Virus record (IMG/VR): IMGVR_UViG_3300043496_000032
Coordinates: 1 to 47,244 of that record
Length of the DNA stretch: 47,244 bases
Source of the DNA: a virus
Reading direction: 5' to 3' (one strand)
Each line of letters begins with the position of its first letter. Positions within the stretch are counted from its first letter, which is position 1. Shown here piece by piece: positions 4,075 through 47,244 of the stretch. The position numbers and the translations under genes are program-made. Below the pieces are notes generated by a model. That model did not search any database, was not told the origin of the DNA, and saw only the letters and a program-made list of their open reading frames with translations.

Positions 4075-5697
4075 ATGAGCACTCAAGACCTACGTATCAC
4101 CCTTAACGCGGTAGATATGCCATTCCTTTATCGGGATGCTCCACGCGCAACTCTGCTACCAGGTCTTGATCAGGTATCTACCAGGATCCGTAACCAACTC
4201 AATCCGGATTGGAACTCACCCGCTCTGCTCTATTGTGAGAATGTAGTACCAATTGCTCGAGGAGTTATCTCCACCCAACTGGCAGATCGGATACCACCCG
4301 ACCCAACGGAAACAGACTTCGACCAAGCAATAACCTTGCGAGACCGTCACGAAACTAACACTCTCTTTGTCCCCGCTAAAGGAAAGAACTATGTCCTTGA
4401 TATAACTACTGGAACCTGGAACAGTTCGCTGCCATTCACGGCAACGTTCTCCCTGGTAACTCGTGGTTATACACAAGGTCGTACGTTCATCTTCTATGAG
4501 AAGGAGAAACTATTCGAATATGATGGAGCTGGTGGGCTTATTGATCGTACGAGCGCTATCGTATTTCCTTCGGGTTTTGCTATCACAGATATTCGTGGTA
4601 TTGGTGCTGCTAGCAACTATCTCCTACTGTTCACAGATATCGACGTGCTCTGGTCATCTCCCACCGATCCCTTGAATTTCGATCGGGCCACAAGTAATGG
4701 ATCAGGGTACCAGACACCACAGGATGCTAGGGGTCAAATCAGTTGCATACTGCCTGTCAGCGGTGGTGCAATTATTTATACTGTGCGAAATGCTGTGGGA
4801 ATTACCTTTACCAATAACGCTGCAACACCATTTGTATTTCGCGGCATCCCCAACTCTGGAGGTGTGGCCGGATACGAGCAAGTCGCCTACGATGCAGATG
4901 AGAAGTTCCAATACGTGTGGGGTTCTGGTGGCTTGCAACAAATAGCACTGAATGGAGCTGATGGGGTGTTCCCAGAAGTTAGCGATTTTCTGACCGCTGG
5001 TCGATACGAAACCTATAACTACACAACTCACCGTATCGAAGAAACAAAATCCCAGACGTACTTCACAGTGAAGCTTACCTATGTAGGTCAACGTTTCTTG
5101 GTGGTGTCATATGGTCCCGTTGTCGGAGGATACACCTATGCACTCATCTATGATACTCAACTACAACGTTGGGGTAAGGTTAAAGTTACGCACGTGGATG
5201 CCTTTAACTATCCGTATCCGAATATTTCTGGTGATCTGGAGTACGATGAGCTATTTGTTGACTACACGGGTTTGGGTCTTTCGTCGTACGAAGATCTGGG
5301 AATTGGAGTACTATCCACTAACCCACCGAAGAAAAGTATTGCATTCCTCAACTCTACAGGCGCCGTCCAGATTCTTGTCATGGACTACGCAGCAAGATCG
5401 CAAACTGGAGTAGCTGTGTTCGGACAGATCCAACACAACAGGAACAACGATACAACTCTGCAGGGTGTAGAACTCGAGGGAGTTGATGCTGGAAGTCTAC
5501 CTCGACTGTTCGCCTTGATATCCCTCAATGGCAAGACTACTGATCGTGCAGTAGAGTACCCTTGTTATGAGGTAGCAGACGAATATCGAAACCACCTGGG
5601 TAGAGAAGTTGGTAGGAATATCAACCTCGCAGTTGAAGGTGCTTTCCAACTTACTGGCCTATTGGTCAAGGTAGCAAAACATGGCCGGACTGGTTAA
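4075..5697 (+). CDS. Tail hub/stabilisation protein, P22 gp10-like (tentative)
   Basis: A 540-residue, beta-rich protein with no signal peptide. Its N-terminus (LNPDWNSPALLYCENVVPIA) resembles the opening of phage proteins that list a 'final' structural surface, and the C-terminus ends with a GREVGRNINLAVEGAFQLTG segment. That G-R-x-x-x-x-x-V-x-G-x-F-x-L-T-G pattern is typical of the last strands of P22 gp10-type tail proteins, which plug the portal and stabilise packaged DNA. Repeated short strands ending in aromatic residues suggest a beta-propeller body. It is the first gene after the fibre cluster and overlaps the next small gene by 17 bases. The family call is by pattern only; a generic tail tubular protein is the alternative. 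Confidence 0.5.
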   Translation: MSTQDLRITLNAVDMPFLYRDAPRATLLPGLDQVSTRIRNQLNPDWNSPALLYCENVVPIARGVISTQLADRIPPDPTETDFDQAITLRDRHETNTLFVPAKGKNYVLDITTGTWNSSLPFTATFSLVTRGYTQGRTFIFYEKEKLFEYDGAGGLIDRTSAIVFPSGFAITDIRGIGAASNYLLLFTDIDVLWSSPTDPLNFDRATSNGSGYQTPQDARGQISCILPVSGGAIIYTVRNAVGITFTNNAATPFVFRGIPNSGGVAGYEQVAYDADEKFQYVWGSGGLQQIALNGADGVFPEVSDFLTAGRYETYNYTTHRIEETKSQTYFTVKLTYVGQRFLVVSYGPVVGGYTYALIYDTQLQRWGKVKVTHVDAFNYPYPNISGDLEYDELFVDYTGLGLSSYEDLGIGVLSTNPPKKSIAFLNSTGAVQILVMDYAARSQTGVAVFGQIQHNRNNDTTLQGVELEGVDAGSLPRLFALISLNGKTTDRAVEYPCYEVADEYRNHLGREVGRNINLAVEGAFQLTGLLVKVAKHGRTG

Positions 5698-5905
5698 CGT
5701 TGCACTGTCTCCTACTGCTCCAGCCTTTCGCACGTTGGATGAAGCTTACACAGTAGTGAACGATCTCTACGTGCAGCTGTATTCCTTGGTGGAACAACTT
5801 AACCGGTACAGCGGAGTTGTTCGCAGTCCGAACGGACACTACTGGCGCATCGAGGTAAGTAACTCTGGTACGCTGTCAACCACAGATCTTGGACTAATTC
5901 TCTAG
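5681..5905 (+). CDS. Small structural protein of unknown function
   Basis: A 74-residue protein whose ATG lies inside the end of the previous gene (17-base overlap, different frame), with an AAGGTAGC stretch upstream as a weak ribosome site. It has an N-terminal helix-like stretch (RTLDEAYTVVNDLYVQLYSLVEQLNRYSG) broken into a hydrophobic-heptad pattern and a short beta C-terminus containing HYWRIEVSNSGTL. The latter resembles the closing strand of small tail proteins in other podoviruses. It is 9 bases ahead of the frameshift gene. Probably a minor virion or assembly factor; function unknown. Confidence 0.6.
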   Translation: MAGLVNVALSPTAPAFRTLDEAYTVVNDLYVQLYSLVEQLNRYSGVVRSPNGHYWRIEVSNSGTLSTTDLGLIL

Positions 5906-5914
5906 GAGAGAACT

Positions 5915-6787
5915 ATGGCTACACAGTCTCCCTTCGATATGCTGCTCGAGAAGTTGATTGGTTCCCAAAGTACCATCAACACAGACGAACAGCTTGGTGT
6001 CAAGAACACTATTAACCAGACCACTACTGGTCAGACAAACGTAACTGGTCAGGATGTTGGCACCAGCGTTATGACTGCTGACATTGGTCGGCTTGCAGAC
6101 GTTTACAACAGGCAGGCTGCTGGTGTAACTCCAGAGATGTTGCAGGCTATCTTCCGTGAAGGAAGTAAGGCAGCACCGCAGTTGGTATCCAGTACAGCTA
6201 ATGCAGTTGGTGCAAGATCAGGAGGTAACAGTCCACTAGCAACTGCCCTCGGTGAACTCCAGAGTAACTTGGTTGGACAAGCTGCAAAGCTTAACACGGA
6301 TATGCTAGGTCAAGCAGGACAAACTGCTGCTCAGATTGGTGCTCTTACCAGGCAAGTTACAGATACGAAGAATACCAACCAAGCAACCACAAGTGGGCAG
6401 AATGTGCTCACCAACCAGGATCAGTTGAGCACGAAGGGTAGTGATACAACTCGTCGAGATACTATCAACACCAAGTCTACTGCTCTGACTGGTGGTGCTT
6501 TGGCTCTTGCTTCTCTGCTGAAGAACAGTGGAATTGATGCTGGAACCATCGCAGGACTACTCAAGAAGATTGGCATCGGTGATTCTGGGTTAAGCCTCGG
6601 TGATGCTGCCAACACAGGCTTCGGAGATGGTACTGGTCTTGGTGGTGACTGGTATACTCCTACCTTCGGTGAAGATACTGCTGGCTTAGGTGAAGGCTTT
6701 GGTGGTATCTTTGGCTGGAAGGATGGTGGTATCGTTCCTACTCCACAGTTAGGGTTTGACACAAAAAAAGTACTGGGCCAGCGGTAG
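5915..6787 (+). CDS. Virion protein, short (zero-frame) product upstream of a -1 frameshift
   Basis: A 290-residue protein with a good ribosome site (AGGAGAG, 7 bases before ATG). It is rich in Thr, Asn, Gln, Ala and Gly, with predicted helices in the middle (LGELQSNLVGQAAKLNTDML) and a Gly-rich tail. Near the end it carries WKDGGIVPTPQ, a motif seen in many phage structural proteins just before a 'GG...VP' linker. The frame ends with ...TKKVLGQR and TAG, and that stop lies within a stem-loop. The stop is bypassed if ribosomes slip at the A7 run at 6763-6769. Position between the hub and the transglycosylase protein suggests an internal or tail-associated virion protein. Confidence 0.75.
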   Translation: MATQSPFDMLLEKLIGSQSTINTDEQLGVKNTINQTTTGQTNVTGQDVGTSVMTADIGRLADVYNRQAAGVTPEMLQAIFREGSKAAPQLVSSTANAVGARSGGNSPLATALGELQSNLVGQAAKLNTDMLGQAGQTAAQIGALTRQVTDTKNTNQATTSGQNVLTNQDQLSTKGSDTTRRDTINTKSTALTGGALALASLLKNSGIDAGTIAGLLKKIGIGDSGLSLGDAANTGFGDGTGLGGDWYTPTFGEDTAGLGEGFGGIFGWKDGGIVPTPQLGFDTKKVLGQR

Positions 6788-7824
6788 GAAGACTGCTGGC
6801 CCTTGCAGGTGGAGACGGTTCAGGTAGCTCTGATAGCAGCGGGGGCTCTACTACTGATGGTGGGAGTTCTGCTGAATCTACTGGAAATTCCGGTCCGGGT
6901 GTCGGCCCTAGTTCTGGTCTTGGTACTACTCCTAGTGTTACAAGTGCTCTGGGTGTTGTAGGCTCTCTGGCTAGTGCCTTTGCGCCGGCAACTCCTATTG
7001 GTTACGTGATTGGACTGGTTAATGCGATTCAGAATGTAGCCAACATGCCAGTTCCAAACATGCTTCCTCCGATTACATTCGATCCAGCAAGTCTGGGGAT
7101 CGGAGCTGGCGATGATGGAACTGGTGGTATTGGTGGTATTGGGGGTGCTGGTGCTGTTGGAAGTGTTGCTGCTGGACCGGCTACGGCCGCTGACTCAGCT
7201 ACCGGTGAAGCCGTGGGAGTTTCTGGTGCTGCTGGTATTGGCACTGGCGGTCCTAGTGCTGATTCAGTAGGTGGAGTTGGTGATGATGGAACTGGTGGAG
7301 AAGGTCCTGGTTCCAGTGGTGATGATGGTGGTTGGGCTGAAGGAGGTACCGTGCCTAAACAAGCTGATGATCCTAAGGGAATCAAGGACACTACTACTAT
7401 CCCTGTTAGTGGTGGTGAGTATGTTCTACCTGCTGATGTAGTAGCAGCTATTGGTGTTCCTGCTTTGGAGATGTTGAAGAACATGTTCCATACACCAGCA
7501 AAGGAACAGGGGGTTAGAAAACCTGATCCGATGCCATACAGTCCCGATGGTGGAATTACTACGGATCAGAGTAAGACAATGGAGGGACGACTTGCAGGAC
7601 AGATGAAAATACGTCCTGATCTTATTCCTATCCTCCTGCACAACGGACTTGACTTCGAGAATGCAGGCAAGACAGTGAAGGCTATCAAGACTCTCCGGCA
7701 GAATGATAACCATCAACTTGCCAATGCAATGGAGAACATGTTCAATACCATCAACCAAGGTAGGTCTGGACCTCTCTCTGTCTTCGATCTGCCTAACTAT
7801 CTCAACAGTCCTGGGTATAGATAA
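5915..7824 (+). CDS. Virion protein, long -1 frameshift fusion product (about 636 residues)
   Basis: The -1 frame is open without a stop from 6763 to 7821, so a slip at the A AAA AAA heptamer adds 351 residues to the first 285. The added part starts STGPAVGRLLALAGG, continues as a long Gly/Ser/Ala linker, and ends in a folded module with AEGGTVPK and VSGGEYVLPADVVAAIG. This is the 'GG-x-V ... GE-F/Y-V-x-PADV' signature of many phage structural proteins. No ribosome site precedes the first in-frame start of the second half (GTG at 7006), and the frame is open well upstream of it, so independent translation is unlikely. A homopolymer sequencing error is the alternative. The end overlaps the next start as TAATG. 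Confidence 0.65.
6751..6802 (+). promoter_or_regulatory. Programmed -1 ribosomal frameshift signal (dnaX-type)
   Basis: Seen directly: A7 at 6763-6769, in zero frame A-AAA-AAA; a 5-base spacer; a perfect 8-bp stem GGGCCAGC (6775-6782) with GCTGGCCC (6795-6802) and a 12-base loop; the zero-frame TAG (6785-6787) lies in that loop. AGGG at 6751-6754, 8 bases upstream of the run, could act as the Shine-Dalgarno-like stimulator known from E. coli dnaX. All three elements have the spacing of efficient bacterial -1 frameshift sites. Confidence 0.75.
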
Positions 7825-10034
7825 TGGCCGTCCTTGATAGGGCTACTATCGAGCAGGAGTTAGAACGAGAGGCACGGGAACAGGGAGTTAATCCCAAGGT
7901 TGCCCGTGCAATCTTACGTGCAGAGAACGGTGGTGCAAGATCCATCGACACGGAAACTACCAGTCCAGCTGGCGCAGTTGGTATCCTGCAAGTAATGCCA
8001 GATACTCTTGCTGGCTTACGTCGCCTTGGTTTCATTCCACAGGACTTGGACTATTCAACTCCACAAGGACAGATTAAGGCTGGAGTTGCTGCCATCAAAG
8101 AACGAATGTCCGCAGGTATTACCAGTCCTGTAGACTTGGCAGTATCCTTCAATGGTAGTCCTGCAGTCTACAAAGCATTCAAAGCTGGACAACCTGTTCC
8201 TGCTGAAACGACTAAGTACATAGCGAACTTTACCAAGGCATTTGGAGGTGATGGTATGGCTGATGATGCGTATGACGACTCCACTCCAGGTGTTACTCCT
8301 GTAACTCGAGTAGCCAACAAAGGAACAGCTACTGGTCAAAGTTTTCGAACCTCCAGTACCTTCTCAGTTCTTCCTGCTGATATAGAGGAAGGAATAATGA
8401 CTTCGATGAATCGAGCATCTGGACTCATCGATCAACTCCTAGTTAAGATACCAGCTTACAATCAGCAGATCGAGGATATCACTAAGCAGCAAACTGAAGC
8501 TCAGCGGCGCATGGGAGTTGCTGCATCTCAGGTAGCAGTTACCAAAGGTGATATCGAAATTGCAGATGTTAAGAATCGTGAGAATATTCTTAGCACCTAC
8601 GGCATCAACATCAACTCGAAAGATGAAGCTGGCAACTTAGCACAGCAACAGGCACTTGCTACCATCAAGCAGATGGAAGCTATTCGTGGACCGTTGGCAG
8701 ATCAGATAGCAGTTCTCAAAGGAACCAATCCACTGGATGATCCTGCTGGTTGGTTGGTTAATAACTTCAAAGCTCTGGGTCTGGAACAAACCTACAATGC
8801 TGTTGATAATAGGCAGAAGATAGCAATTGACCATCTGAATCAGATACAGGCACTTGCTACCAAACAAGCTGCTATCCAACCTGCAGACGTCACAGAATCT
8901 ATCCAACTCCGCAGCTACGCAGAGGCACAGTATGCTCGAGCTAAAGCAACGGCGGATATTGCACAAACAGAGAGTGCAGCAAAACAGCACATTGCTCGGA
9001 GCATGACGGAACAACTTAACTTAGTCAACGCCGACTTGAGCCACAGGTTTGCAGCTGCTCGTCTCTACCAAGAGAAGTTCTCCCTATCTCAAGCAGATGT
9101 TGCTCGTACTAAAGCAGAGAAGGAAGAACAAGATTACTTCAATGTGCTGAACATGTTTGGTGATACCTTCGGAATGAAGCCACTAAACAAGATCAGTATC
9201 AAGCTGTTCGACAAGGAAACGATGGATAGCTTTGCTCGTGCTGCACACACGGGTAGTTTCCAGAACATGGGTGAAGCTGTTTCTACGATGCACAAGCTCA
9301 TCGGAGATAATGGATTTGCTGATCTGCAGAAGAAGTCTCCAGTCCTTGGTGACTTCCTCGTAGATGCTGTCAAGGGTGGACAAGCAGAACTTGATAAGCT
9401 CTACGAGAAGGATAGAACCAACGGTACATCCAATCCACTGTTCAAGGTGTATAAGACAGACAAGGAACGTCTGGAACTTGGAATTGATCTCTGGCAGAAA
9501 GCTAAGGAAGAAGAGCTACTGTATAAGGACTACAGTAAACTCAGTGTAGATAATCCACGGAAGATTGACTACGCTCGAGCTAACACACTTCCTGAACTTG
9601 CAAGCAACTCTGTCACTACCTTGACAAAGAACTTCAAGGGTGTTGTTTCTGATGAACTCATCATCAACAATGCCGTTGGTAGTGCACTCAATGATCCAAG
9701 TACCATCCCTAAGCTTGCTCAGGACATAGCTACCTACTACCGTACAGCTACGGAAAGTCGTGCTGGTTCTCAAGGTTTGTCCCAATACGGATGGAAGAAA
9801 GAGAAGAGTATTCAGTACCCAGTTTTCTACAACAAGTCCAAAATAGATATGTTCAATCCAGCTCAGATTGAGCAACAGCTTACAATCCAGTACGCTACCA
9901 ATGCAGCTTATGCAGCTGGTATTGATCCTATGGGACTTGGTGCTCCTGTGGCAGAACCAGCAGCTCACGAAGCAGATCCAAGGATGAGCAGAGAAACTTG
10001 GAACCGTGTGAATAAGCCTGGAGCAGTACAGTAA
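7824..10034 (+). CDS. Internal virion protein with N-terminal lytic transglycosylase (SLT) domain
   Basis: The protein has 736 residues. Residues 1-140 are an SLT-type lytic transglycosylase: the likely catalytic Glu is E34 in AILRAENGG, followed by SPAGAVGILQVMP (47-59), an FNGSPAVY segment and TKYIANF. This domain cleaves peptidoglycan glycan strands between MurNAc and GlcNAc. The rest is largely helical, with long Gln/Ala/Lys-rich coiled-coil stretches (about 190-440), as in podovirus ejection proteins that form a periplasmic conduit. It starts on the TAATG overlap with the upstream frameshift gene and overlaps the giant protein downstream in the same way, so translation is probably coupled. 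Inferred role: local cell-wall opening during DNA injection. Confidence 0.8.
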   Translation: MAVLDRATIEQELEREAREQGVNPKVARAILRAENGGARSIDTETTSPAGAVGILQVMPDTLAGLRRLGFIPQDLDYSTPQGQIKAGVAAIKERMSAGITSPVDLAVSFNGSPAVYKAFKAGQPVPAETTKYIANFTKAFGGDGMADDAYDDSTPGVTPVTRVANKGTATGQSFRTSSTFSVLPADIEEGIMTSMNRASGLIDQLLVKIPAYNQQIEDITKQQTEAQRRMGVAASQVAVTKGDIEIADVKNRENILSTYGININSKDEAGNLAQQQALATIKQMEAIRGPLADQIAVLKGTNPLDDPAGWLVNNFKALGLEQTYNAVDNRQKIAIDHLNQIQALATKQAAIQPADVTESIQLRSYAEAQYARAKATADIAQTESAAKQHIARSMTEQLNLVNADLSHRFAAARLYQEKFSLSQADVARTKAEKEEQDYFNVLNMFGDTFGMKPLNKISIKLFDKETMDSFARAAHTGSFQNMGEAVSTMHKLIGDNGFADLQKKSPVLGDFLVDAVKGGQAELDKLYEKDRTNGTSNPLFKVYKTDKERLELGIDLWQKAKEEELLYKDYSKLSVDNPRKIDYARANTLPELASNSVTTLTKNFKGVVSDELIINNAVGSALNDPSTIPKLAQDIATYYRTATESRAGSQGLSQYGWKKEKSIQYPVFYNKSKIDMFNPAQIEQQLTIQYATNAAYAAGIDPMGLGAPVAEPAAHEADPRMSRETWNRVNKPGAVQ

Positions 10035-13000
10035 TGGGACCACAAGACTATGTCTATGCAGCAGATACTACCAACGTACAGGCTGGTGGTAGTTCTATCT
10101 TTGATGCTGCAGCCGATGCAGTAAAGATCGGTGGTGGTTCAGCAGTAATTTCCGGATGGCATTCCATCTATAACACAGGCGTCGATGTTGCAAACTTCTT
10201 CGGCGCCGATGCAGAACGAGTTGACACTCAGAAATACATAAATGACATAGACCAGAACTGGGGCTCCTACTACAAGGCCAACAAAAATGTTATTGACACT
10301 GTTGGATTTATCGGAACTTCCTTCGTCCCTGGTGGCCTCGCAGTTAAAGGACTCAACGCATTACGTCGTGGAGAAAGTGCTGGGGCATTCGCACGTTCAC
10401 TTAATTTCGCTTCGGCAAAACAAACAAGGGCGTTGGATGCCGCACTACAAGATCTGGCCTCTGTTGAAGGAACCATTGGTAGCAGACTCAACAAGAACAC
10501 TATAGCTGCCCTAGGCTGGGGAGTTGCAGATAATGTTCTGCAAACAGCTGCATTCGAGTTAGCTACTGTTGCAACGATGAAGGCAAGTCCCTTGCTGGAT
10601 GGAGAGGATTGGAAACACGTTACCTACGATATCGTAAAGACAAGTCTTTTTGGCGGCGTCTTTGCTGGTGGTATCGAAGGCTTGCTGATGAACCGGATCA
10701 CAAAGGATGCTAGTAAGGCAATCAGCGCACAGGGAAACAAGTATCAGAACATGCTGACTGCTTTCGATCGTACTGCTTTGGAAGACTCGGACAAGGCATA
10801 TGCGATTGCAGACAACGTTCTTGCTCTGCCCAAGGAAGTATTCGAGAACGATAAGATTCTGGACTTCACCTACAAGCTCAACGGGCAGGAACGGAAAGTT
10901 GCACTCGATACAGCAGGACTTCGAGACAAGCAACTCCAAACAACTATCCACAAGTCTCTAACTAAGTTAGAAGAAACCATCACTACCCATCTTGCCGATG
11001 ATCCCTCAGTAGGTAAGGGACTAGCTGATGCTGTACTCAAGCTAGTTAAGGATGGTAGAGGTGCAGGTAAGACAGACGAGCAAATCCGTGCACGAGTTGG
11101 AGACTACCTCCATCTGCTCGAGAGTGTAGAAGGTGCAAGCCTTGGTTCTTTGCGGCGAGAGGATATCTTCTACTTCGACAAGACAGCTAAGATTGCAGAC
11201 GATGTTAGTCCATTCAGTTCCGAACGTAAGAACGTGTCCGACAAGGTATTTCGTATCGTTGGTGGCGATCTTAAGTCGGTGAAGCAAGTAACCCTTGGAC
11301 TTGATACGGAAACGGTTACCGTGAAAGATGCTTGGGAACAAGGTTACGACTTAGCATTCAAGCCGAACGGAACCTATACTGTCAATCCTGCCAGCCAGCG
11401 ACTCAGGGAGATTGTAGAACCATCCACTCTCCAGAGTTTCCTTCGCGTAGACAGTGGAGCTACCAGCGAAACTGCTGTCCTGTCTGCTGCAGATATCGCT
11501 ACGAAGCAAACACCGTTGCAGGTCTTCGGAGACTTGGTACGTGCAGGAGATAGGCAGTTTAAGTTCAGCACGGAGAAGTTGCCAGAAGCTGCAGACAGTA
11601 TCGAACACAGCGCACGTCACTTGTGGGCTAGCAAGTTGGAACGTATCAAGGGAACCGTAGATGAGAGTGATATCTCTGTTCTCGATCGTATGTCTTCCGC
11701 TAAACATCTAGTAGATGATGATGTTACCATCAAGCTGAACGGAGTTGAGCAGCCAGTACCTTGGAGGGATCTTGGTAACTTCGATGAGTGGGTGTTTAAC
11801 AATAAGATTGACAAACTCCGCATCCTTGCAGACAAGGGAGAGTTCAATGTTACCGAAGCAGCATACGCACTGAACACTACACCTCACTGGATTCAGAACG
11901 TAATTGCAAGCAAGTTCGAAACTCAGTTGCAGAAACAAGCTACTGGTGCACCGGATGTTACGAGTGGTTGGCAACGTGAACTGGCAAGCTATGCGAATAG
12001 AGACACCATCGTCCTGAACTACAAGAACCTGAACCAGCAACAGATCAACGAACTCGGTCAGGTATACCAGATCGTTCCTCGTGGAGATATGATTACTGGT
12101 CCACAGCAAGAGAAGTTCCTGCTGGACAGTACCGGTAACAATACGTTCATCACCGGACAGCAAGCCTACGCTTATAGAGTTAAGCTGGCCAAGGAACAAC
12201 TCAACAATGCTTTCAGTTCTGTGTTCGGAGAGGATGGTAAGAAGTTTGTTGACTTTTCATTCGAGCAGCTCTCAGGACTTGCAGACCAGCTTGGCGCCGG
12301 AGCAGGACTTGTATCCTTCGCCAACGCAGACTACGGAGATATGCTTCGCTTGCTAGTACAGCATACAGGCAAGGAAGTTCACTTGCTCACGCAGAAGTAC
12401 TCCAATGCAAACTTAACTCGCCTGCAACCATTCCTAGCACAGCTCAAGAACAGTCCACAGGATAGTGGAGAACTGGTAGCTATCGTAACCAAGCTTCGTC
12501 GCAGTCCAGAGAACTTTACCATCTTCCAGCATCAACAAGGTATCGACGATGCAGGTAACCTAATCTCTGGAACCTACCTGATCGACAAGAACATCATCCG
12601 GGATAAGGTATCTCTGCAGAGTGCAATCGAACAAGCAGCTACTGGTACACAAGGAGATACTGCTGCCTTCCGTATTCGTTCTCAGCTTGTCTCCGATTTC
12701 CTCCGGGAACACATGGATATCAACCGTGAGATAGTGCAGAAGAGAAAGGTACTGCTAAATGCACAAGGCATCACCAGTAACATTCCAGAAGATACTCTTC
12801 ATGCGCCGCCCATTGATACCCGCAAGATTCCGTACTTCGCTTTTGTCCGTCCGATTGAGGGTAAGATCTTTGGCGACTCGAACGTATCAATGATAACGGC
12901 TAAGAATGCAGAAGAACTACAGAGGCTTGCAGCTCAAGTTGATACCAAGCAGTTCCAAGTTATCTTCAAGAAAGAGTCCGAAGCTTTCCATAAAGCGAAA

Positions 13001-15118
13001 GGTGATTATGAATACTCCAGAGGATTCAACGAATCCACAGTTAACAGTGGACTTCACAAAGCAGGCAAACTTGGAGATTTTCTCCCTAGCTTCGAACCTA
13101 CAGACGTCCTTGAAGACTTTGTACAGTATCACCAACGGGCGGCCTCTCAGCTTGTCAGAGATGGTGTCTCTACGAAATACAGTCAAACTTTTACAGAACT
13201 CCGTAGACTCTCTGAACAATTTACTCTCGCAGCAACAAGTAAGGCCGAACCGATAAGCAAGCTGTTTCAGAGAAATGTGCAAGATCCCTTCGATGATTAC
13301 ATCAAGACAGCACTGGATATCAGCAAGCGGAGTGAGTTCACCTTACTGCATCAGACCAATGAGTTCATCGATGCTGTTGGAACTCGAGCCTATGCTGCTG
13401 TAGATGCTGCCAGAGATCGTGCGTTTAAGGGAAAGATAACTTGGCAAGAGGCTAACTCGGAGCTAGAACGGTTTGGACTTAGTGCTCCCTTCGAGGATGC
13501 ACATAGCTTTGCAGTTGCACAGACAGTGGCTGATCGTAACCTAATCAAGACTGCACTACAGAAAGCTAACATGGCGTTGGCTACTGTAACTCTGCGGTTC
13601 GATGCAGCTAACTCGCTGATGAACGTTATCTCCACGCCAATCATGCTTGGCACCGAGCTGGCCAGCATTCGACGATCTGTTGCTAACGATCCTGCACTAG
13701 CAGGTAAGCTTGCAGAGTTGACCTCGGAGTTGATTCCCGGTGGTGCAGGCAGGATTCCCAGTACTACCCGTCTAGTGTACGATGCTATCAAGAACTACTG
13801 GGGTCCAGATTCCAAAGCTCTGATAGAACGGTATATCAAGAACGGAGATATCAAGGACGTTATCAGCCAGTACCATGAGATGGTAGATGATCTGTCTCTG
13901 CTTCCCAAGCTCGTACCTTCTGAGTTCAGCAAGAAAGCTGACAAGTGGACTGAGCGGGTAGCTACTGGTTTCGGAAACAACTTTGCTGAGCAGTTCACTA
14001 GGTTCGTATCTGCAGATGTAATGCGGCAGATTACTGAACCGCTGGTGAAGGCTGGAAAGATGGGAGTTGCAGAACAAAATGCTTATATGTCTGTCTTCGT
14101 TAACAGGGTACAGGGAAATTACATTGCCAGTCAACGCCCCATACTATTCCAAGGGACGCTTGGCTCGGCACTTGGACTATTCCAAACCTACCAATTCAAC
14201 CTGCTACAACAGTTGTTCCGTCATATCGAAAACAGGGATCTTAAGACCGTTGCAGTCATGGGAGGATTACAAACTAGTCTGTTCGGGCTTAACGGGTTAC
14301 CGCTCTTTGACGCTATCAATACGAATATCATCGGTAATGCCAGCATCAATGCCGGTCACAGAGATATCTACTCGACAGTAGCTCAGGCAAACAAGGAGGC
14401 AGGGGATTGGTTAATGTACGGAACTGCAAGTGCCTTGCCAATCTTCAATGGTAAGGGACCAGCACTGTACACACGTGGAGATATTAACCCTCGACACGCA
14501 AGTATCATTCCTATCACGCCATTGGATGTACCAGCAGTTGATGGAACTATCCGATTCGCTACCAACTTAGTCAACATTGGTAAGAAGCTAGCTGCTGGTG
14601 GGAATGTTGGTGCTTCGCTGATGGAAGGCTTGGAACATAACAGTGTGTCACGTCCACTTGCTGGTCTTGCTCAGGCATTCCAGGGATACTCGACGACTAG
14701 CAAGGGTTCGTTGATTGCAGCAAGCAATGATTTCTGGAGTGTTGCTAACGCCAGTCGTGTACTTGGTGCTAAACCCTTGGATGAATCCGTGTTGCTGAAT
14801 ACCAAGTTCCGTTCAGAAGCCTACAAGGCTGCGGACAGGGAAGCTATCAGTATCCTTGGTAGTGCAATCAAGACAAAGCTTCGGGGTAATCAAGCTCCTA
14901 CCGATGAAGAGATGCAGGACTTTGTTGGTAAGTATGCAGCTCATGGAGGTAGAGTTGAGAACTTCAGTAGCGCATTACAGAGTTGGTCACGAGATGCAAA
15001 CCAATCTATATTGAATACGCTTGCTAACCAAGTTCGTTCACCTTACGGGCAACGGATGGTTGAAGTTATGGGAGGTGAGAGAATGGATGACTATCGTAAT
15101 CTCCCACCCTCAGAGTAG
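10034..15118 (+). CDS. Giant internal virion (DNA ejection) protein
   Basis: At 1694 residues this is the largest protein in the genome. It has no signal peptide or enzymatic motif that I recognise. It is mostly helical, with an early hydrophobic Gly/Ala segment (FIGTSFVPGGLAVKGLNAL, about 95-113) and another near VADNVLQTAAFELATVATM, both able to associate with membrane. Size, position as last gene of the late operon and coupling (TAATG) to a transglycosylase-bearing virion protein match the large ejection proteins of podoviruses, comparable in role to T7 gp16 although here the transglycosylase is on the neighbour. A strong terminator follows 50 bases downstream. Role inferred from context. 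Confidence 0.65.
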   Translation: MGPQDYVYAADTTNVQAGGSSIFDAAADAVKIGGGSAVISGWHSIYNTGVDVANFFGADAERVDTQKYINDIDQNWGSYYKANKNVIDTVGFIGTSFVPGGLAVKGLNALRRGESAGAFARSLNFASAKQTRALDAALQDLASVEGTIGSRLNKNTIAALGWGVADNVLQTAAFELATVATMKASPLLDGEDWKHVTYDIVKTSLFGGVFAGGIEGLLMNRITKDASKAISAQGNKYQNMLTAFDRTALEDSDKAYAIADNVLALPKEVFENDKILDFTYKLNGQERKVALDTAGLRDKQLQTTIHKSLTKLEETITTHLADDPSVGKGLADAVLKLVKDGRGAGKTDEQIRARVGDYLHLLESVEGASLGSLRREDIFYFDKTAKIADDVSPFSSERKNVSDKVFRIVGGDLKSVKQVTLGLDTETVTVKDAWEQGYDLAFKPNGTYTVNPASQRLREIVEPSTLQSFLRVDSGATSETAVLSAADIATKQTPLQVFGDLVRAGDRQFKFSTEKLPEAADSIEHSARHLWASKLERIKGTVDESDISVLDRMSSAKHLVDDDVTIKLNGVEQPVPWRDLGNFDEWVFNNKIDKLRILADKGEFNVTEAAYALNTTPHWIQNVIASKFETQLQKQATGAPDVTSGWQRELASYANRDTIVLNYKNLNQQQINELGQVYQIVPRGDMITGPQQEKFLLDSTGNNTFITGQQAYAYRVKLAKEQLNNAFSSVFGEDGKKFVDFSFEQLSGLADQLGAGAGLVSFANADYGDMLRLLVQHTGKEVHLLTQKYSNANLTRLQPFLAQLKNSPQDSGELVAIVTKLRRSPENFTIFQHQQGIDDAGNLISGTYLIDKNIIRDKVSLQSAIEQAATGTQGDTAAFRIRSQLVSDFLREHMDINREIVQKRKVLLNAQGITSNIPEDTLHAPPIDTRKIPYFAFVRPIEGKIFGDSNVSMITAKNAEELQRLAAQVDTKQFQVIFKKESEAFHKAKGDYEYSRGFNESTVNSGLHKAGKLGDFLPSFEPTDVLEDFVQYHQRAASQLVRDGVSTKYSQTFTELRRLSEQFTLAATSKAEPISKLFQRNVQDPFDDYIKTALDISKRSEFTLLHQTNEFIDAVGTRAYAAVDAARDRAFKGKITWQEANSELERFGLSAPFEDAHSFAVAQTVADRNLIKTALQKANMALATVTLRFDAANSLMNVISTPIMLGTELASIRRSVANDPALAGKLAELTSELIPGGAGRIPSTTRLVYDAIKNYWGPDSKALIERYIKNGDIKDVISQYHEMVDDLSLLPKLVPSEFSKKADKWTERVATGFGNNFAEQFTRFVSADVMRQITEPLVKAGKMGVAEQNAYMSVFVNRVQGNYIASQRPILFQGTLGSALGLFQTYQFNLLQQLFRHIENRDLKTVAVMGGLQTSLFGLNGLPLFDAINTNIIGNASINAGHRDIYSTVAQANKEAGDWLMYGTASALPIFNGKGPALYTRGDINPRHASIIPITPLDVPAVDGTIRFATNLVNIGKKLAAGGNVGASLMEGLEHNSVSRPLAGLAQAFQGYSTTSKGSLIAASNDFWSVANASRVLGAKPLDESVLLNTKFRSEAYKAADREAISILGSAIKTKLRGNQAPTDEEMQDFVGKYAAHGGRVENFSSALQSWSRDANQSILNTLANQVRSPYGQRMVEVMGGERMDDYRNLPPSE

Positions 15119-15167
15119 TTTTTCTCTGCAGTTGCCAAGCTGGACTTCCTCCCCAGCTCTTGCAGAA

Positions 15168-15193
15168 CCCCCGCTTCGGCGGGGATTTTTTTT
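15168..15193 (+). terminator. Rho-independent terminator of the late operon
   Basis: CCCCGC-TTCG-GCGGGG stem with a UUCG tetraloop (15169-15184) followed by eight T (15186-15193). It separates the rightward late operon from the end of the leftward arm. The reverse strand has no T-run after the stem, so it appears one-directional. Confidence 0.93.
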
Positions 15194-15198
15194 GTCTG

Positions 15199-31900: not shown

Positions 31901-31929
31901 TTGACTTTCCACTATTTCCATGCTAACAT
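31901..31929 (+). promoter_or_regulatory. Candidate late promoter for the structural operon
   Basis: TTGACT (31901-31906), 17-base spacer, TAACAT (31924-31929), predicted start near 31936, 73 bases before the first late gene. The spacer contains TTCCACTAT, repeated at about 31846. Confidence 0.55.
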
Positions 31930-32008
31930 TTTGCACATCAACGCAAAATTTCAGAATCGGCTAACAGTCTCCGGCCGTTTACTAGGAGACTACCTTGAGG
32001 AAACTAAC

Positions 32009-32545
32009 ATGGGTCCTTTTCTTGCTCTGATTACTCCACTTGGTGGAGGTGATGGTGGTGGAGGCGGTGGAACTGGTATCTGGGGACCAACAGATCCACG
32101 ACCAACGCTTCCCATTGCTGGTTGGAACCCTGGCAGTGGCCAGTTTCCGCCATTCGTACCTCCTGGTGGTGGTGAACAACCTCCGTATCCCAGTCATCCG
32201 ATTGCTGGTGGTCCGTGGCCTACTCATCCTATCTTCTATCCTCCGGGAACTCGTCCACCGGGACAAGGTGGGCCGATGCCTCCGATCATCGTAGTTCCAC
32301 CGGAGCAACCTCCTGGTATTTGGGGACCGAATGATCCTCGTCCAACTCTGCCGATTTCTGGTTGGAATCCTGGTACTGGCCAATTCCCAGAAGTACCGGG
32401 TGGCGGCGGAGAAGGAGAACACAAGCCGAAGTTCGAGCGGAAGATTGGTTGGTCAGAGCAGACCGGCTGGGTAGTTGTGTTTGTTCCAGCAGAAGGAACT
32501 CTGGTACCTACGCCATCCAGCGAGACGGAACAACCCAAGGAGTAA
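32009..32545 (+). CDS. Proline/glycine-rich repeat protein at the head of the late operon
   Basis: 178 residues from the ATG at 32009 (GAGGA 7 bases upstream). Opens MGPFLALITPLGGGDGGGGG, then two copies of IWGPxDPRPTLPIxGWNPGx about 80 residues apart, separated by a Pro/His-rich linker. The end is a compact strand-rich part (GWSEQTGWVVVFVPAEG). Proteins of this kind stand just before the terminase in several podoviruses; their function is not known to me. Extended and probably non-globular. Confidence 0.7.
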   Translation: MGPFLALITPLGGGDGGGGGGTGIWGPTDPRPTLPIAGWNPGSGQFPPFVPPGGGEQPPYPSHPIAGGPWPTHPIFYPPGTRPPGQGGPMPPIIVVPPEQPPGIWGPNDPRPTLPISGWNPGTGQFPEVPGGGGEGEHKPKFERKIGWSEQTGWVVVFVPAEGTLVPTPSSETEQPKE

Positions 32546-46678: not shown

Positions 46679-47244
46679 ATGCCAACTACTTTCAACTACA
46701 ACGGATTCGAACTCAACGAAGCCCAGGTGCAGGCTATCGAGAAATTCGTTGCGTTAATTGCACCGTCATCTGGAGGACCTTCTACCATGTCTGGCTCTGT
46801 TGTTACTGCGTTCAATCCAGCTATTCCCTTGGATATCTACGTTGGTCGGGATATGGGAGTAGTTGATCTTGCCGACAAGGGAGACATTACGTTCTCCGTT
46901 GCTGGTGGTGCAGTACATGAAGGACTCTGTTCTGTTGAGTTGATAGCAGATGGTGTGCATACCGTAGACATAGATACCCACTGGGTGAATCCACTTGGTT
47001 TTCAGTTCAACACTACCAGTGGACAGCACAACCTGCTCTTCTTCGAGTACCGCAATGATGCAGCTTATGTCTACGGAGTGCTAGGTCAGGTTCTGGATGT
47101 ACTGGCTCCTACTCTGCTGTCTGCCGTGGTGAGTAATGATGATCCAACAAAGGTCCGACTTACTTGGTCTGAAGCAATGGCGGCTACTGTTGCTGCGGCA
47201 AGTGCTTTTCCTATTCCGGGTCGTATTGTCTCTGCCCATACTTA
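46679..47244 (+). CDS. 5' part of the SwmB-like tail fibre gene crossing the contig end
   Basis: ATG at 46679, 6 bases after the previous stop. Codes for the first 146 residues before the repeated terminal 127 bases and continues in frame at position 1 of the window to end at 1124. The N-terminal part is a helix (NYNGFELNEAQVQAIEKFV) followed by a beta domain (PAIPLDIYVGRDMGVVDLAD, HWVNPLGFQFNTTSGQHNLL) that likely trimerises or docks the fibre. Window end truncates nothing biologically. Confidence 0.7.
   Translation, partial: MPTTFNYNGFELNEAQVQAIEKFVALIAPSSGGPSTMSGSVVTAFNPAIPLDIYVGRDMGVVDLADKGDITFSVAGGAVHEGLCSVELIADGVHTVDIDTHWVNPLGFQFNTTSGQHNLLFFEYRNDAAYVYGVLGQVLDVLAPTLLSAVVSNDDPTKVRLTWSEAMAATVAAASAFPIPGRIVSAHT
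47118..47244 (+). repeat. Exact 127-base copy of positions 1-127
   Basis: The last 127 bases of the window are identical to the first 127, and the open frame continues through the join. The overlap lies inside a gene, which is the usual result of an assembler closing a circular or circularly permuted genome with k = 127. True terminal repeats are less likely. Confidence 0.9.

Follow-up and report, generated by a model that had tools for sequence, protein, structure and literature searches.

Two reading frames of an ejection-cluster gene in a podovirus-like phage, probably joined by -1 programmed ribosomal frameshifting

Genome and gene neighbourhood

The stretch of DNA analysed here (referred to hereafter as the window) is the IMG/VR virus record IMGVR_UViG_3300043496_000032 at its full length of 47,244 nt, and the frameshift site that it contains is known from this one assembly. 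The two ends of the window share an exact 127-bp terminal repeat (positions 1-127 identical to 47118-47244), 127 being a common assembler k-mer length; the repeat therefore suggests both a short-read assembly at k = 127 and a genome that is circularly complete, most likely a circularised molecule of 47,117 bp. The window encodes a major capsid protein (SU10-type, by Pfam), a portal, a terminase, a protein with an SLT domain and, directly behind it, one of 1694 aa. This gene set places the virus among podovirus-like phages that are distant relatives of Aeromonas phage P5 and of Pseudomonas phages 119X and PaMx41. Elsewhere in the genome, the ORF at 31901-32545 is Pro/Gly-rich, with repeats such as GIWGPNDPRPTLPISGWNPGTGQFP.

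The gene at issue (Table 1) belongs to a run of structural genes in the order hub/nozzle, frameshift gene, SLT ejection protein and giant ejection protein. All genes near the frameshift site lie on the + strand and, the frameshift gene apart, no gene of the structural block looks broken. From gene order and synteny alone, we infer that the product is a protein of the virion or of the ejection apparatus. The marks of a tail-chaperone gene (a place before the tape measure gene, and chaperone homology) are absent, the gene lying between the hub/nozzle and ejection proteins and giving no match to chaperone families. Comparison of its product with the PaMx41 structural protein gp22 at profile level was not significant; Aeromonas phage P5 and PaMx41 share the gene position and had been considered as carriers of core homologues, but were dropped as evidence because the profile comparison was not significant. 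A small ORF of 75 aa (5681-5905) follows the hub-like gene and precedes the frameshift gene, and phage P5 has a small gene at the equivalent place.

Table 1. Features of the frameshift gene and its neighbours (window coordinates).
Feature	Position	Strand	Score
Virion structural protein of 540 aa encoded upstream, nozzle/hub-like from its position	4075-5697	+	
ORF of the short form (core protein, 290 aa), read in zero frame, with good ribosome site CTAGGAGAG upstream	5915-6787	+	anti-SD duplex -7.3
Conserved helical core domain, common to about 20 related phage contigs	5957-6403	+	
AGGG, 8 nt ahead of the slip site, suggested as an SD-like stimulator; no better than chance	6751-6754	+	
Slippery heptamer A_AAA_AAA, in zero frame	6763-6769	+	
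Extension in the -1 frame, 351 aa (STGPAVGR..., then a Gly-rich linker and the C-terminal module)	6769-7824	+	
Spacer GTACT, 5 nt	6770-6774	+	
GC-rich stem-loop, 11 bp, 6-nt loop	6775-6802	+	
TAG that ends the short form in the zero frame, at the stem top and loop	6785-6787	+	
Earliest ATG/GTG in the -1 frame (a GTG), lacking a ribosome site	7006-7008	+	anti-SD -2.1
GG-x-V ... GEYVLPADVV module, in frame with the core in relatives	7333-7506	+	phrog_11341, E = 1.6e-8
Downstream neighbour, 736 aa, lytic transglycosylase (SLT) domain, ejection-protein-like	7824-10034	+	PF01464, E = 6.3e-7
Giant ejection-type protein, 1694 aa, bait for relatives	10034-15118	+	

The zero and -1 frames overlap at 6760-6787, and the heptamer sits in the zero frame within this overlap. 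An earlier note on this DNA had described the -1 frame as open from the heptamer to its stop, with a first start that lacks a ribosome site, and we find the same: the frame is open from 6760 to 7824 (stop codon 7822-7824) and reaches its first ATG/GTG only at 7006. Codon usage speaks for the zero frame as far as position 6762 and for the -1 frame from 6769 onward, including the interval 6769-7005, such that 79 codons of the -1 frame are coding ahead of that first start. Core residues 1-285 joined to the 351-aa extension amount to a long form of 636 aa. The AF2 model of the core is helical but of low confidence (pLDDT 55; helices at residues 58-68, 73-100 and 106-150), not good enough to support a fold search; the core profile, compared with the PDB, gave no usable match.

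The slip site and its downstream hairpin

Read in the zero frame, the junction runs ACA AAA AAA GTA, placing the A_AAA_AAA heptamer in frame with a G next to it and bearing out both the slip site and the 5-base spacer of the earlier note. The hairpin, previously given as an 8-bp stem with a 12-base loop, does have a GC-rich stem that starts at 6775, but its eight Watson-Crick pairs are continued by G-U, G-C and U-A, hence the longer stem and shorter loop in Table 1; likewise, the zero-frame TAG that had been assigned to the loop is present but straddles the stem top and the loop.

The 46 nt 3' of the heptamer have a folding energy of -24.7 kcal/mol (z = -3.7; no shuffled version among 200 does as well), and sliding folds return the 6775-6802 hairpin as the lowest 30-nt MFE on the + strand of the genome (-22.9, the next independent one at -17.4). 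The downstream structure expected of a -1 cassette is thus in place, combining a 5-nt spacer, 11 bp, a z-score well below zero and the strongest fold of the genome. A stem this strong located 4-9 nt downstream is available to 9 of the 47,075 positions on the + strand, all of which belong to this one hairpin. We also surveyed the window together with loci of its relatives, 110 sequences and 1.79 Mb in all. On both strands, and in ORFs of 100 aa or more, these contain 70 in-frame A_AAA_AAR sites with a median downstream fold of -3.9; the window site stands at -22.9 and the next at -14.6, no other site in these 1.79 Mb having a hairpin below -15. Coincidental placement of a strong hairpin at the canonical spacing is of the order of one in several thousand. 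The heptamer is the sole A7 in the genome, and the sole longer run is a T8 at 15186; the latter follows a hairpin (15155-15195) in the gap between two convergent genes, whose ends are at 15118 (+) and 15390 (-), an arrangement that is probably a terminator.

The upstream AGGG is present where the earlier note had proposed a Shine-Dalgarno-like stimulator, but this role is unsupported, since its anti-SD duplex of -3.6 kcal/mol is equalled or beaten by 24% of in-gene segments (dnaX, -7.7). The same note had called the whole a complete dnaX-like signal, which overstates the resemblance. The E. coli dnaX element, confirmed against E. coli genomes, does share with the window an A-run slip site, a 5-nt spacer, a stem-loop of about 11 bp and products with a common N-terminus (46-nt folds of -24.7 in the window and -19.7 in E. 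coli dnaX). The window differs in having A_AAA_AAA where E. coli dnaX has A_AAA_AAG, in its polarity (the shift leads to the long form here and to the short form in E. coli dnaX), in the gene concerned and in lacking a significant SD element, and an Rfam search for DnaX or another element family gave no match up to E = 10. In E. coli, A_AAA_AAA is reported to be much less shift-prone than A_AAA_AAG (PMC5009743).

Homologous genes and the decoding of the locus

Relatives were gathered via the C-terminal part of the 1694-aa protein, and every ORF of their loci was screened with two profiles, one for the N-terminal core and one for the C-terminal GG/PADV module. Some of the sequences behind these profiles came from L005, L007, L010, L011 and L012, the remaining loci being independent finds. 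In the screen, 11 distinct related contigs (L005, L007/L009, L011, L051/L052, L053/L054, L056, L057, L060, L062, L063 and L067) encode core and module without a break in a single ORF of 573-863 aa, and core and module are fused in L111 too, as identified by eye. In the fused relatives the continuous frame crosses the linker at the place of the window's junction, downstream of an F.W.DGG.V motif, and the residues at the junction are alike (TQSTGAL in L005, TKKSTGPA in the shifted frame of the window). Given that core and module share one ORF in 11 relatives, the two frames of the window belong together. Of the fusion of two virion reading frames that the earlier note had claimed, the -1 shift that joins them is retained; the frames themselves are better described as two parts of one gene than as separate entities.

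Eight further contigs carry the core as a stand-alone product (L010, L012, L068, L071, L074, L082, L112 and L113). Where the following gene was examined (L010, L012, L112 and L113) the module is absent from it, the downstream genes being unrelated; L068, L071, L074, L082, L112 and L113 were considered as further split genes and rejected, none having the module in another frame. The core of L074 ends in "...LFGW*", just ahead of the F.W.DGG site of the fused homologues and the window. In a tree of the giant protein, the window falls with modest support amid relatives of both kinds, fused and core-only. In L112 (2402-2445) the core gene, which has its strongest hairpin at 2410, shares stop-codon bases with the start of the gene behind it (ATGA), a possible case of translational coupling.

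Conservation of the A-run and stem could be followed in distant homologues only, as protein searches with the hub, portal and core (IMG/VR and phage records) returned no close relatives, IMG/VR holds no exact DNA copy of the heptamer plus stem, and the nearest relatives are 64% identical in a neighbouring protein. The single-ORF homologues share with the window the core domain, Gly-rich linker, GG/PADV module and gene place, but differ in their uninterrupted frame and, save for one candidate in L067 (see below), in having no comparable slip site and stem. Single-gene homologues without a stem were what the earlier note had named as speaking against its reading; most relatives are of this kind, and frameshifting in the window is not thereby refuted.

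We consider it highly probable that the gene at 5915-7824 gives rise, through -1 programmed ribosomal frameshifting, to a short protein of 290 aa and a longer one of 636 aa. As in the earlier note, a -1 shift joining the frames is the best explanation, given the fused ORF of the relatives and a coding signal that switches at the heptamer before any start. The majority of ribosomes would read the core and stop at TAG 6785-6787, releasing the 290-aa form, and such a product is plausible in that relatives have the core on its own (L074 ending just before the DGG motif). Some ribosomes would be stalled by the 11-bp stem with the two AAA codons of A_AAA_AAA in their P and A sites; this fraction would slip back by one base and continue as ...DTKK-STGPAVGR... 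to 7824, producing the 636-aa form with its Gly-rich linker and GG/PADV module. We infer the slipping itself, as we do its rate. The points against frameshifting are the less shifty A_AAA_AAA, the SD-like AGGG that is not significant and the mostly single-frame state of the homologues.

With most homologues single-frame, the main rival becomes an indel, in which a normally continuous gene would have lost one A of an A8, whether by assembly or consensus error or by real mutation. The single, uninterrupted ORF of the relatives agrees with this, as does a break that falls in the only A7 of the genome, its most indel-prone spot. The strongest hairpin of the genome would, however, then lie 5 nt downstream by chance (about 9 in 47,075 positions); in addition, the rest of the structural block shows no broken gene, selection should act against a broken gene in a late structural block, and the 127-bp repeat points to short reads, in which A7 miscounts would be rare. 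The A run by itself is compatible with either account; a hairpin at the canonical spacing and unmatched in the genome suits frameshifting alone, and we therefore keep frameshifting at high probability and regard the indel as distinctly unlikely.

Two separate proteins, the second begun at GTG 7006 or by termination-reinitiation past the TAG at 6785-6787, would recall the relatives in which a stand-alone core precedes a different gene (L112 with its overlapping ATGA start). The genes downstream of such cores are nevertheless unrelated to the module, which in other relatives is joined to the core; GTG 7006 has no ribosome site and 79 coding codons in front of it, and near the stop the only candidate start codons in the -1 frame are CTG, inside the stem, all of which makes this arrangement very improbable. 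We give as little credence to transcriptional slippage on the A7, whereby part of the mRNA would gain an additional A and both proteins would be encoded: the seven-A homopolymer is present, but A7 is short for efficient transcriptional slippage, and the stem, lying 3' of the tract, cannot form while the polymerase is on the tract and would be left unexplained. Such slippage does serve the same purpose in Thermus dnaX (PMC5009743). Finally, an antisense transcription terminator that has nothing to do with decoding, as might be read from the minus strand (hairpin, AGTAC, then T7), can practically be dismissed, for the 5-nt gap between stem and T-run misfits an intrinsic terminator, the element is absent from a terminator scan, the nearby genes are all on the + strand and the frame change at the same spot would go unexplained.

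Known frameshifts and a candidate of opposite polarity

Frameshifting in structural proteins is documented for T3/T7 gene 10, for the capsid and tail of Listeria phage and for Kuravirus-like capsids (PMC5009743, PMC9965538, PMC7881722); the kind of mechanism proposed here is therefore a known one, and the earlier note, which had linked the -1 sites of phage tail genes to tail-assembly chaperones, drew the context too narrowly. T7/T3 10A/10B and the Kuravirus/Privateer capsid resemble the window in that a -1 shift near the end of the gene places a C-terminal extension on a fraction of the product. They differ in concerning the major capsid gene and in using other slip sites (GGGAAAG in Kuraviruses), whereas the gene in the window lies in an ejection-protein cluster and has relatives that encode the long form as one ORF. 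Lambda-type gpG/gpGT also produces short and long forms at a set ratio by a -1 frameshift, but the window differs from the lambda chaperones in gene and position, with no long tail genes nearby; neither lambda product is found in the virion (PMC5009743).

Within the literature searched, where we found no frameshifting in internal virion or ejection genes, frameshifting in this gene family appears to be new. If true, the range of -1 frameshifting in phage structural genes, which takes in those for capsid, tail proteins and tail chaperones, would widen to include the ejection-protein cluster of podovirus-like phages, and the natural stand-alone, fused and frameshifted versions would make it possible to study the effect of the short:long ratio on the particle. 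Gene calling that relies on start codons would break such a gene in two and assign its second half wrongly.

One of the continuous homologues (L067:3196-3233) reads TCA AAA AAG CCT GAG, that is, an in-frame A_AAA_AAG with a 5-nt spacer, ahead of a 10-bp stem with a 6-nt loop that is the second-strongest among the 70 surveyed sites. The -1 frame there stops three codons on (KKA*), for a product of about 343 of the 681 residues. Such a stem occurs at 0.6% of positions in the locus and at 1.3% of those in the gene, and the fold is no stronger than those of shuffled sequences (z = +0.45); the site is suggestive only of a dnaX-polarity cassette in the homologous gene, one that would make the short form. 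That this ejection-cluster family sets its short:long ratio by recoding, with the cassette evolved in both polarities (toward the long form in the window, toward the short form in L067), is a tentative idea that we hold to be possible, if rather doubtful. A shift that leads to the long form has been reported for a few bacterial dnaX genes (PMC5009743), and two polarities within the phage family would, if true, parallel those reported for bacterial dnaX.
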